Shown piece after piece: positions 24,425 through 26,697 of a stretch of DNA of 26,697 bases. Each line of letters opens with the position of its first letter. Positions within the stretch are counted from its first letter, which is position 1. Origin of the DNA: a virus. The stretch spans positions 1 to 26,697 of the IMG/VR virus record IMGVR_UViG_3300008012_000148; one strand, given 5' to 3'. The notes beneath the pieces were generated by a model. That model saw only the letters and a list, made by a program, of their open reading frames with translations, did no database searches and was not told where the DNA came from. A program made the position numbers and the translations under genes.

Positions 24425-24819
24425 AATACAAATCCAAAAAGGTAGAGCTAGACGGTTATGTTTTCGACAGTATGTCCGAGGCAAAGCACTACTACCACAC
24501 ACTAAAACCTAGGCTTGAGGCCGGGGAAATAAAAGACTTGAGGATGCAGCCAGCTTTTCGCTGCGAGATAAACGGGAGACTAATATGCAAGTATATAGCG
24601 GATTTTCAGTACGTCGATTTAAACACGATTGGTCTACAAGGCCAACAGGGATGCACCATAATAGAGGATGTGAAGGGTTTCAAAACGCCAGTGTACAGAC
24701 TGAAGAAGAAACTGGTGGAAGCGATACATCTGGGTACAAAGATCTTAGAAGTATCTCCGCGACCATATCAATTAAAAAAATACTCGCTGCCATCTCACGC
24801 CGTTCTCATATCCAACTAG
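24421..24819 (+). CDS. DUF1064 family nuclease (PD-(D/E)XK-type, Holliday-junction-resolvase-like)
   Basis: This 132-aa protein matches DUF1064. Motifs are SKKVELDGYVFDSMSEAKHY with Glu20, GEIKDLRMQPAF, IADFQY with Asp61, IIEDVKGFKTPVYRLKKKL with Glu82 and Lys85, and KILEV near residue 111. These are the elements of a PD-(D/E)XK nuclease and suggest cleavage of branched or structured DNA. Start: GTG at 24421, coupled to the preceding TGA. Typical members end near the KILEV position. Here 21 more residues follow, and codons 119-120 (AAA AAA) form an A AAA AAA heptamer at 24774-24780. A -1 shift there would lead straight into the DnaA-type domain of the next frame. Confidence 0.85.
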   Translation: MKYKSKKVELDGYVFDSMSEAKHYYHTLKPRLEAGEIKDLRMQPAFRCEINGRLICKYIADFQYVDLNTIGLQGQQGCTIIEDVKGFKTPVYRLKKKLVEAIHLGTKILEVSPRPYQLKKYSLPSHAVLISN

Positions 24820-25049
24820 AAGTATTGACCGGGCGTAAACGCAATAAGATTATCATGCCGTGGCGTCAGCTAGCCTACCTTCTCAGCTATGAACTCACGG
24901 GCTGTACACTGACACAAATAGGTAAAGTCCTTAACCGTGACCACACCTCGCTCATGCACGGTATCAAACAAATCAATAAGCTACGTCAGCAAGACCAGTA
25001 CGTAGAGCATATCTACCGGGAGTTGAGGCGTGAACTGTCCGGAGTGTAG
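24585..25049 (+). CDS. DnaA domain IV-like DNA-binding protein, start uncertain
   Basis: The recognisable part begins at about 24780. It has the helix IQLEVLTGRKRNKIIMPWRQ and the helix-turn-helix signature LTQIGKVLNRDHTSLMHGIK of the DnaA C-terminal domain, where Arg-Asp-His-Thr contacts the DnaA box. DnaA domains I-III (ATPase) are absent. The frame is open from ATG 24585 with GGGAG six bases upstream, but residues 1-63 look like a shadow of the DUF1064 gene they overlap. Alternatives are a -1 frameshift fusion from the DUF1064 gene at the A7 run 24774-24780, or an internal start (TTG, about 24828). It could bind DnaA boxes at a phage or host origin and so control replication. Confidence 0.75.
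   Translation: MQVYSGFSVRRFKHDWSTRPTGMHHNRGCEGFQNASVQTEEETGGSDTSGYKDLRSISATISIKKILAAISRRSHIQLEVLTGRKRNKIIMPWRQLAYLLSYELTGCTLTQIGKVLNRDHTSLMHGIKQINKLRQQDQYVEHIYRELRRELSGV
24774..24780 (+). other. A AAA AAA heptamer, possible -1 frameshift site
   Basis: The heptamer A AAA AAA is in the correct phase (codons 119 and 120 of the DUF1064 frame). It lies at the exact point where the frame -1 relative to it becomes the DnaA domain. The pattern is the one used by known -1 slippery sites. No strong downstream hairpin was found by eye, only a short GCGTAAACGC about 50 nt later. A homopolymer error or a transcription slip could produce the same effect. Confidence 0.45.
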
Positions 25050-25221
25050 CAACCAAAGTACCGTCGTGCTTAACAAGGCCAAGCAGCGCGAAAAACTATA
25101 TAGGCTGTACTCATGCCCGGCGTGCAAGATAAGATTTCAAACAACAGAAGTATTAAGAAACAAACCCGAAGACGAAACCTACAATTTTCAACGTAAAGAA
25201 AATAGAAATAAATATAGGTAA
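25030..25221 (+). CDS. NrdR-type zinc ribbon protein
   Basis: This 63-aa protein has a four-cysteine zinc ribbon. CPEC at residues 3-6 and CPAC at 29-32 are separated by a Lys/Arg/Tyr-rich strand (KQREKLYRLYS), followed by FQTTEVLR. The arrangement equals the N-terminal zinc ribbon of the NrdR repressor, but the ATP-cone domain is missing, so it is more like small phage zinc ribbons that act in transcription. The start is GTG at 25030, preceded by GGGAG, inside the end of the DnaA-type gene. Its stop is 3 nt before the next gene. Confidence 0.75.
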   Translation: MNCPECSNQSTVVLNKAKQREKLYRLYSCPACKIRFQTTEVLRNKPEDETYNFQRKENRNKYR

Positions 25222-25224
25222 CCC

Positions 25225-25674
25225 ATGTCATCAATGTACAATTTCCAGACGTACCGACCTGTGTATGAACGTCCACTAGACCGGGATAACGAAGGTCAAC
25301 TGGCCCAACTCGTTACACAGAAATGGAAATGCACCATGTCCAAGTTACGCGATAAGTCAGCGTTCGACTACGCCGCTATCCGTAATGATGACGTCATGGC
25401 CTTTATCGAAATGAAAACACGCAAGAACGAAATGAACACGTACCCCACCTACATGATTAGCTTTACCAAAGTATTCAAAGCCAAGCAGCTTAACCAAGCT
25501 CTGCACCTACCCGTACTTCTTATCGTGAAATGGGCCGACGCCGTGGGCTTTACCTCACTGCACAACTGTAAACCATCCATCAAAATAGGTGGTCGTAAAG
25601 ACCGTAAAGACCCAGCCGACATAGAACCCGTCGCGTTAATTCCTATCAAAGACTTTCAAAGGATACCAACATGA
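25225..25674 (+). CDS. Putative PD-(D/E)XK nuclease-fold protein
   Basis: This 149-aa protein shows a plausible nuclease active site: Glu23 in an N-terminal helix (DNEGQLAQLV), Asp48 in KSAFDYAAIRND, and IEMKTRKN with Glu62 and Lys64. This is the E..D..ExK pattern of the PD-(D/E)XK superfamily. The rest has alternating strands and helices (FIEMKTR, YPTYMISFTKVFKA, LPVLLIVKWADAV), in line with Holliday-resolvase-like folds. A good site (AGGTAACCC) precedes the ATG. It overlaps the next gene (ATGA). It may act with the DUF1064 protein in early DNA processing. The substrate is unknown. Confidence 0.65.
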   Translation: MSSMYNFQTYRPVYERPLDRDNEGQLAQLVTQKWKCTMSKLRDKSAFDYAAIRNDDVMAFIEMKTRKNEMNTYPTYMISFTKVFKAKQLNQALHLPVLLIVKWADAVGFTSLHNCKPSIKIGGRKDRKDPADIEPVALIPIKDFQRIPT

Positions 25675-25823
25675 CCGACACAATCCCTTGCCCGAACTGC
25701 GACGGCGAAGGTCAATACTATGCCGAGGTTCCAGTGGTAGACTTTACCAACGGCGGCTATCTCGACGAACGGCTAGTTGAATGTGAAGACTGCGACGGCT
25801 CCGGGGAGCTAGACGATGACTAG
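25671..25823 (+). CDS. Mini zinc-finger protein, DnaJ-type
   Basis: This 50-aa protein consists almost entirely of two CxxCxGxG units: CPNCDGEG (residues 7-14) and CEDCDGSG (38-45), separated by a strand-rich loop (AEVPVVDFTNGGYLDERLVE). This is half of the DnaJ/Hsp40 cysteine-rich zinc-finger region, which has four units. It can bind one zinc ion as a hairpin and might act in protein binding or as a chaperone-like adaptor. It overlaps the preceding gene (ATGA) and the methyltransferase start by eight bases. Confidence 0.75.
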   Translation: MTDTIPCPNCDGEGQYYAEVPVVDFTNGGYLDERLVECEDCDGSGELDDD

Positions 25824-26583
25824 CCCCATCATGGACCACGTTGATTTATGCAGTGGAATCGGTGGGTTTGCTCTTGGTTTTGAATGGGCTGGACTTAGCC
25901 GCCCTGTTCTTTTTTGCGACATAGAACCGTGGAGCCGCAAAGTTTTAAGAAAGCATTGGTCAGACGTACCCATAGCAGAAGACGTGAAGGAGTTAGCAAA
26001 TGACCCAGATGGACTTATTCCAGACACAGACCCAAGACGAACAATCCTCACAGCCGGATATCCATGTCAATCATTTTCACTTGCCGGGAAGCGCAGAGGC
26101 ACAGAAGATGACCGACATATCTGGCCGTACATATTTTCCATTATTCAAGCCAAACGACCCGCTTGGTGCGTTTTCGAAAACGTTTATGGTCACGTTACTC
26201 TGGGCCTCGACCAAGTGCTATCTGACTTGGAAGGTGAGGGCTACGCCACAAGGCCGTTCATTGTTCCAGCTTGTGCCACGGACGCACCTCACAGAAGAGA
26301 CAGACTTTGGATTATCGGAAGAAATGTGGCCGACGCCATGCGCATCAAACGCCAAGGGAGCAGCGAGAGACAGATTTATGGGGAGCGAGACTTACAGAAG
26401 CAACTTGGACGAGGCAGTCAGGACACACAAGTACGATGGCCAATTGAACCCCCAGTGGGTCGAGTGGCTGATGGGATACCCAGAAGGGTGGACAGACTTA
26501 GAGGACTAGGTAACGCAATCGTACCTCAGATTGCCCAGAGAATTGGTGAAACAATACTTCACGGGAGTTCTCAAAATGAGTAG
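25816..26583 (+). CDS. DNA (cytosine-5)-methyltransferase
   Basis: This 255-aa Dcm-type enzyme is complete in its motifs. Motif I is DLCSGIGGFALGFEWAG (residues 10-26). Motif IV is GYPCQSFSLAGKR with catalytic Cys84. Motif VI is ENV (121-123). Motif VIII is HRRDRLWIIG (159-168). Motifs IX-X are VDRLRGLGNAIVPQIA (225-240). It methylates cytosine in a target set by the short region between motifs VIII and IX (about 45 residues), which is smaller than in most Dcm proteins. It could protect phage DNA from host restriction. GGGGAG lies 7 nt before the ATG. Bases 26000-26509 are also open in the +1 frame and appear to encode a second protein, and the end overlaps the PAPS-reductase-like gene. Confidence 0.95.
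   Translation: MTSPIMDHVDLCSGIGGFALGFEWAGLSRPVLFCDIEPWSRKVLRKHWSDVPIAEDVKELANDPDGLIPDTDPRRTILTAGYPCQSFSLAGKRRGTEDDRHIWPYIFSIIQAKRPAWCVFENVYGHVTLGLDQVLSDLEGEGYATRPFIVPACATDAPHRRDRLWIIGRNVADAMRIKRQGSSERQIYGERDLQKQLGRGSQDTQVRWPIEPPVGRVADGIPRRVDRLRGLGNAIVPQIAQRIGETILHGSSQNE
26000..26509 (+). CDS. Gene overlapping the methyltransferase in the +1 frame
   Basis: A 169-aa frame lies wholly inside the cytosine methyltransferase gene. It has an exact AAGGAG (25987-25992) 7 nt before its ATG and no stop for 169 codons. Its sequence resembles proteins often found beside phage cytosine methyltransferases: FPLFKPNDPLGAFSKTFM (46-63), KCYLTWKVRATPQGRSLFQL (72-91), RTHLTEETDFGL (94-105), MWPTP, and a conserved-looking end LNPQWVEWLMGYPEGWTDLE (149-168). 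It is polar, with no membrane segment. The function is not known to me. It may be a partner of the methyltransferase or may read the same DNA as a by-product of codon constraints. See the findings. Confidence 0.6.
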   Translation: MTQMDLFQTQTQDEQSSQPDIHVNHFHLPGSAEAQKMTDISGRTYFPLFKPNDPLGAFSKTFMVTLLWASTKCYLTWKVRATPQGRSLFQLVPRTHLTEETDFGLSEEMWPTPCASNAKGAARDRFMGSETYRSNLDEAVRTHKYDGQLNPQWVEWLMGYPEGWTDLED

Positions 26584-26697
26584 CCCGTACAAACTTCCCG
26601 AAGGTAATGTTGCCATTAGTTTTAGCGGCGGTAGAACGTCCGGGTATATGCTCCACCAAATCTTAACAGAAAACGGAGACTTGCCAGAACGATGCAA
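26576..26697 (+). CDS. PAPS reductase-like / PP-loop nucleotide hydrolase (5' part only)
   Basis: The last 122 bases encode MSSPYKLPEGNVAISFSGGR and 20 more residues before the window ends. ISFSGGRTSGYM (residues 14-25) is the PP-loop (SGGxxS) of adenine-nucleotide alpha-hydrolases such as phosphoadenosine phosphosulfate reductase. The family is common in phages, where its role is unclear (sulfur metabolism or nucleic-acid modification). The start overlaps the methyltransferase stop by eight bases, with GGGAG upstream. The remainder lies outside the window. Confidence 0.8.
   Translation, partial: MSSPYKLPEGNVAISFSGGRTSGYMLHQILTENGDLPERC

Follow-up and report, generated by a model that had tools for sequence, protein, structure and literature searches.

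Does the +1 frame inside the cytosine methyltransferase gene of this virus encode a protein of its own and, if it does, what is that protein for? The window analysed here is a stretch of 26,697 nucleotides from a virus contig. The initial annotation had described a 169-codon +1 frame, with AAGGAG 7 nt before its ATG, inside an intact Dcm gene, and re-reading the sequence confirmed this. It had also laid the two translations over each other at two places, APHRRDRLW on HLTEETDFG and EPPVGRVADGIPRRVDRL on NPQWVEWLMGYPEGWTDL, and both overlays agreed base by base. We refer to the outer gene as alpha and the inner one as beta. The features of the pair are as follows.

25816-26583, + strand: alpha, an m5C DNA methyltransferase gene (Dcm-like), 255 aa, intact, with motifs I-VIII and X and without motif IX
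25843-25878, + strand: alpha motif I (DLCSGIGGFALG), AdoMet binding, outside the overlap and near-invariant in the alignment
25987-25992, + strand: AAGGAG ribosome-binding site of beta, lying in Lys-Glu codons of alpha
26000-26509, + strand: beta, a +1-frame gene nested wholly in alpha, 169 aa, intact, ATG start and TAG stop, putative small subunit
26062-26079, + strand: alpha motif IV (PCQSFS) with the catalytic Cys; P83 and C84 invariant
26176-26184, + strand: alpha motif VI (ENV), invariant
26293-26310, + strand: alpha motif VIII (RRDRLW); R161 and R163 invariant
26327-26437, + strand: variable WPTP module region of beta, candidate for target recognition; a poorly conserved linker in the alpha frame
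26444-26494, + strand: motif IX-like block of beta (LNPQWVEWLMGYPEGWT), from a motif profile scan of single-chain enzymes
26509-26556, + strand: alpha motif X (GNAIVPQIAQRIGETI), at and past the end of beta; G232, N233 and P237 invariant; predicted helix

The genes around the pair were also noted. A DnaA C-terminal-like HTH protein (24585-25049; PF08299, E=2.7e-15) is followed by an NrdR-like zinc ribbon (25030-25221), and a phage PD-(D/E)XK endonuclease gene lies shortly upstream of alpha (25225-25674; PF24579, E=4.1e-40). The next gene begins in the last codons of alpha (26576-26697) and resembles the N-terminus of a PP-loop/PAPS reductase (SGGRTSGYM). Phage C72C1 has a PAPS reductase gene a little downstream of its methyltransferase.

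A first sample of relatives was gathered by similarity to the +1 protein, comprising 102 phage records at E<=1e-5 and the best 80 of 435 IMG/VR stretches. A methyltransferase ORF with a relative of beta in its +1 frame was found in 87 of 87 sequences (85 loci, the window and its self-copy). Because sampling of this kind favours conserved +1 frames, a second sample of 80 loci was collected with alpha residues 1-60 only, which lie outside the overlap and make the sample blind to the +1 frame. In this sample the beta ORF was present in frame +1 at 79 of 80 loci, the 80th contig ending inside the methyltransferase, and was fully nested in 71 of 72 complete pairs. The other same-strand frame contained a mean of 15 stops over the beta span and was never open. 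When the synonymous codons of the window gene were shuffled with its alpha protein kept, the +1 span acquired a mean of 6.5 stops and 0 of 2000 shuffles left it open. The expectation is 4-8 stops per gene, yet nearly all +1 frames are open.

Divergence at four-fold sites of alpha was then compared inside and outside the overlap. In the alpha-sampled set, differences amounted to 0.54 in the 5' flank, 0.28 in the overlap and 0.65 in the 3' flank, and the fall in divergence started and stopped at the beta boundaries. The first sample gave the same result (58% upstream, 22% in the overlap and 64% downstream). Extra constraint on alpha-synonymous sites, for which the initial annotation had called as a check, is therefore present and limited to the overlap.

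An untranslated +1 frame might still look conserved only because the methyltransferase is, and conserved genes do retain some identity in frame +1: with selection on the methyltransferase alone, a +1 identity of 0.29 was expected over motifs IV-VIII and 0.26 over the C-terminal (motif IX) block. The observed values were 0.51 and 0.56, well above this null, and the beta protein is about twice as conserved as the methyltransferase alone would predict.

Codon positions were compared between pairs that were 70-97% identical and not phylogenetically independent. Over motifs IV-VIII these showed the normal alpha pattern, with position 3 changing fastest, in damped form. Beyond motif VIII, change was fastest at position 1 of alpha, equivalent to position 3 of beta, both in the variable region and over motif IX. 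Identity was also higher in the +1 frame than in alpha, both in the variable region (0.592 against 0.528) and in motif IX (0.838 against 0.802). Taken together, the shift of the fastest position and the higher identity of beta suggest that beta takes over from alpha as the dominant coding frame. A second beta subfamily, of the Acinetobacter/Salmonella phage type, showed the same switch.

Beta is a real gene under its own selection. The initial annotation had left two alternatives, a conserved overprinted gene or a frame shadow; the first is strongly supported and the second we consider exceedingly unlikely, because synonymous constraint is confined to the overlap, the +1 frame is open in a sample blind to it, and the codon-position signature is that of the inner frame. 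It had also named breakage of the +1 frame in most homologues as the observation that would count against a gene, and beta was instead carried by every alpha-sampled locus long enough to show it.

Next, the spread of beta was studied. When 84,980 bacterial and archaeal genomes were searched with the beta alignment, 309 relatives were confirmed. All of the best 80 overlapped a methyltransferase in frame +1, 75 of them fully nested and 5 partly, and they came from Proteobacteria, Firmicutes, Bacteroidota, Verrucomicrobia, Acidobacteria, Chloroflexi and others. The second subfamily, which starts MSWLFSQAL and has a different N-terminal half, overlapped in +1 at 80 of 80 loci, and phage records picked by hand from weaker beta matches all showed the same overlap. 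On the question raised earlier of whether the family ever occurs with no Dcm frame beneath it, no such case was found in the viral, phage and genome loci, covering the best 80 per scan; with only top-ranked matches examined, rare exceptions are possible.

The hypothetical family that the initial annotation had mentioned does exist, as 32 of 32 beta homologues tested matched phrog_1008, which is labelled 'DNA methyltransferase'. Beta gave no meaningful match in Pfam or NCBIfam, and its profile found no relative by sequence in PDB or Pfam. In phage Lily the inner ORF is annotated as 'g62 internal gene', inside the methyltransferase gene, and the 'Mte8-like protein' of K1 phages (K1G) belongs to the beta family or a close relative of it, whilst most other phage records leave beta unannotated. 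PHROG 1008, 'Mte8-like protein' and 'g62 internal gene' are thus names for the beta family itself or its close relatives, and none of these annotations carries the motif IX or subunit explanation. In the literature we found no text giving the inner ORF a function or describing the nested family or its spread; the P. larvae phage papers merely tabulate two methyltransferases. New here is the apparent change of dominant frame, from alpha up to motif VIII to beta immediately beyond it; this change and the breadth of the nested pair are the points of note.

What alpha lacks gave the first indication of the role of beta. Alpha matched PF00145 over residues 6-176 (E=5.8e-35) and phrog_363 (E=1e-64), and motifs I, IV, VI, VIII and X, which mark the large polypeptide of an M.EcoHK31I-type enzyme, were all present. 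The alpha family profile matched M.HhaI over residues 12-176 (E=1.4e-28); beyond these only the motif X helix was matched, non-significantly. The predicted structure of alpha likewise consists of a large domain like that of HhaI and HaeIII and a separate C-terminal helix, with a low-confidence linker between them. No window of alpha after residue 150 ranked motif IX first in any of five single-chain enzymes. At one locus (L188:2286-3557) alpha carries a stop between motifs I and IV and beta is intact.

By contrast with alpha, beta carries a candidate for the absent motif. Its C-terminal end, the block listed above, matches motif IX (LSPRECFRLQGFPDSF), and M158, G159, P161 and W164 are invariant. 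Of five classical single-chain m5C methyltransferases, each offering about 290-400 windows, four had motif IX as the top-ranked window under a profile of beta residues 149-165, and 0 of 2000 column-shuffled beta profiles reached four enzymes. With the same scoring, motif IX came top in 3 of 5 enzymes for two further windows of beta, and the SPbeta-type motif IX came only 29th in the scan. The case for beta as the carrier of motif IX is strong but not perfect, resting as it does on a short block. The predicted structure of beta was poor (AlphaFold, pLDDT 57), and a fold search with this low-confidence model found no PDB match.

Related loci place the same block differently. In Gordonia phage Rabbitrun the motif IX block is read in frame with the methyltransferase and immediately precedes motif X. 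Two overlapping ORFs are present in Mycobacterium phage SheaKeira and at locus L213, and there motifs IX and X are both carried by the second of them. These layouts are what would be expected of alternative arrangements of one split enzyme, and they support the assignment of motif IX to beta. At the Rabbitrun locus (L264:1489-2352) a beta-like WPTP module was also seen in the +1 frame just upstream of the in-frame motifs IX and X, a layout that may reflect programmed frameshifting or a compensating indel. SheaKeira genes 80/79 (L256:1471-2494) form a partly overlapping AquI-like pair, whose second ORF consists of WPTP modules, IX and X; other mycobacteriophages have two 'DNA methylase' genes annotated in the same way.

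Beta could alternatively be an accessory protein in its own right, such as an anti-restriction factor or a regulator, overprinted by chance and not a subunit. Consistent with this, its N-terminal half has no detectable relative outside the family in profile searches against PDB and Pfam, and the alpha-beta complex is a prediction from sequence. We nevertheless regard an accessory protein as unlikely: alpha has no motif IX whilst the most conserved block of beta matches it, that block and motif X are fused at related loci, beta was never seen without alpha in the loci examined, and M.EcoHK31I provides a biochemical precedent. The two products are better read as subunits of one enzyme, because the most conserved block of beta is the very motif that is absent from alpha. 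This goes beyond the initial annotation, which had not recognised what the protein is, and it is preferred to a pairing of an enzyme with an unrelated protein.

How beta is produced was also considered. Of 60 alpha-sampled relatives, 56 had AAGGA or AAGGAG ahead of the beta start, spaced, as in the window, about 7-8 nt from the beta ATG or GTG, and the N-terminus that follows the ATG is conserved (MTQMDLFQ). Both observations speak against beta being read by programmed frameshifting from alpha, which would yield an alpha-beta fusion in place of a protein initiated internally. Four of the 60 relatives have no clear internal Shine-Dalgarno, and a frameshift could join the module to motifs IX/X as these are placed in Rabbitrun and SheaKeira; even so, frameshifting is very unlikely as the route to beta, and we favour internal initiation.

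Out-of-frame HNH genes occur in actinobacteriophage methylases (PMC11855218), which raises the question of whether beta is, like the ShiLan element, a homing endonuclease that has inserted into a methylase gene of a phage. Domain and profile searches found no HNH or zinc-finger match in beta, which overlies the essential alpha motifs IV-VIII and is no insertion, and no relatives were seen in which the beta region was a mobile insertion absent from an intact alpha. A ShiLan-type HNH element was rejected on these grounds and is scarcely conceivable here.

The locus is very probably that of a C5-cytosine DNA methyltransferase made of two polypeptides, as in the M.EcoHK31I type, the beta gene being nested in the alpha gene. 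In the mechanism we propose, alpha would supply the AdoMet-binding and catalytic large domain (motifs I-VIII) together with motif X. Beta would be started independently inside the alpha gene, in frame +1 from its own AAGGAG and ATG, and would supply motif IX and probably the target-recognition region, so placing specificity in beta. The two would assemble into one active enzyme that is expected to methylate the phage's own DNA, most likely as a means of evading host restriction.

The WPTP region offers some support for specificity in beta. Beta homologues contain 1-8 WPTP-like modules, and their number correlates with beta length (r=0.83), as would be expected if target-recognition units duplicate in beta. 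One unusually long beta, of 489 aa (L119:2179-3645), probably has many recognition modules and possibly belongs to a multi-specific enzyme. Simple repeats were seen in the variable region at three loci, (AG)11 at L206:3540-3561, (AG)7 at L219:3503-3516 and G9 at L156:3271-3279. These are all three of the loci in which motifs X and IX are displaced into other frames, each has a repeat, and just one such dinucleotide tract was seen among intact alpha genes. The repeats suggest phase-variable methyltransferase switching by slippage, or indel errors of assembly.

Over motifs I-VIII and X the ancestral frame may have been that of alpha, and over the recognition region and motif IX that of beta; the overprinted parts would then be the N-terminal half of beta and the linker of alpha. 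A fuller account, which we consider evenly balanced between right and wrong, is one of reciprocal overprinting: the ancestral single-chain frame would switch at the end of motif VIII, specificity would reside in beta and be diversified by WPTP duplication, and the nested pair would be widespread in phages and bacteria with its annotation largely missed or mislabelled.

When genes of bacteria and phages overlap at length on the same strand, this is usually written off as an artefact of annotation. The pair described here is conserved across many bacterial phyla and has a likely biochemical role, with both products acting, we suggest, in one enzyme. It would explain a confusing database family variously called 'DNA methyltransferase', 'Mte8' or hypothetical. 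It also predicts that methyltransferases of this kind annotated without beta are incomplete and, cloned alone, would look dead. Because the dominant frame appears to change mid-gene, the pair should be a clean system for studying how two frames share one sequence.

Comparison with known methyltransferases places the window among the split enzymes. The single-chain M.HhaI and M.HaeIII have the catalytic domain and motifs found in alpha but, unlike the window, they are one chain, with motif IX in-frame between the recognition domain and motif X. M.AquI is split after motif VIII into two polypeptides, the small subunit having both IX and X (PMC3404938). The window shares the two polypeptides and the point of the split but keeps motif X in alpha, which does not fit an M.AquI-type split; overlapping pairs of AquI-like form were seen in SheaKeira (L256) and at L213.

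The closest counterparts are M.EcoHK31I and M.EaeI, two-polypeptide m5C methyltransferases of YGGCCR. The small subunit of M.EcoHK31I is reportedly encoded in an alternative frame inside the large-subunit gene, and in the window too the small gene lies in another frame within the large one. Motifs I-VIII and X of M.EcoHK31I are in the large subunit and motif IX alone is in the small one (PMC3404938), the same division, going by the published description, as in the window. Both proteins are required for methylation in vitro, according to Lee et al. (1995 NAR 23:103) as cited in PMC3404938. The window pair differs in being a phage gene, with no partner restriction enzyme identified for it. It differs also in that the target-recognition domain of M.EcoHK31I is predicted in the large subunit (PMC3404938), whereas the variable region of the window is better conserved in the beta frame and evolves at its pace. 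Apart from this predicted place of the recognition domain, the window appears, from its sequence, to fit every testable feature of the M.EcoHK31I type.
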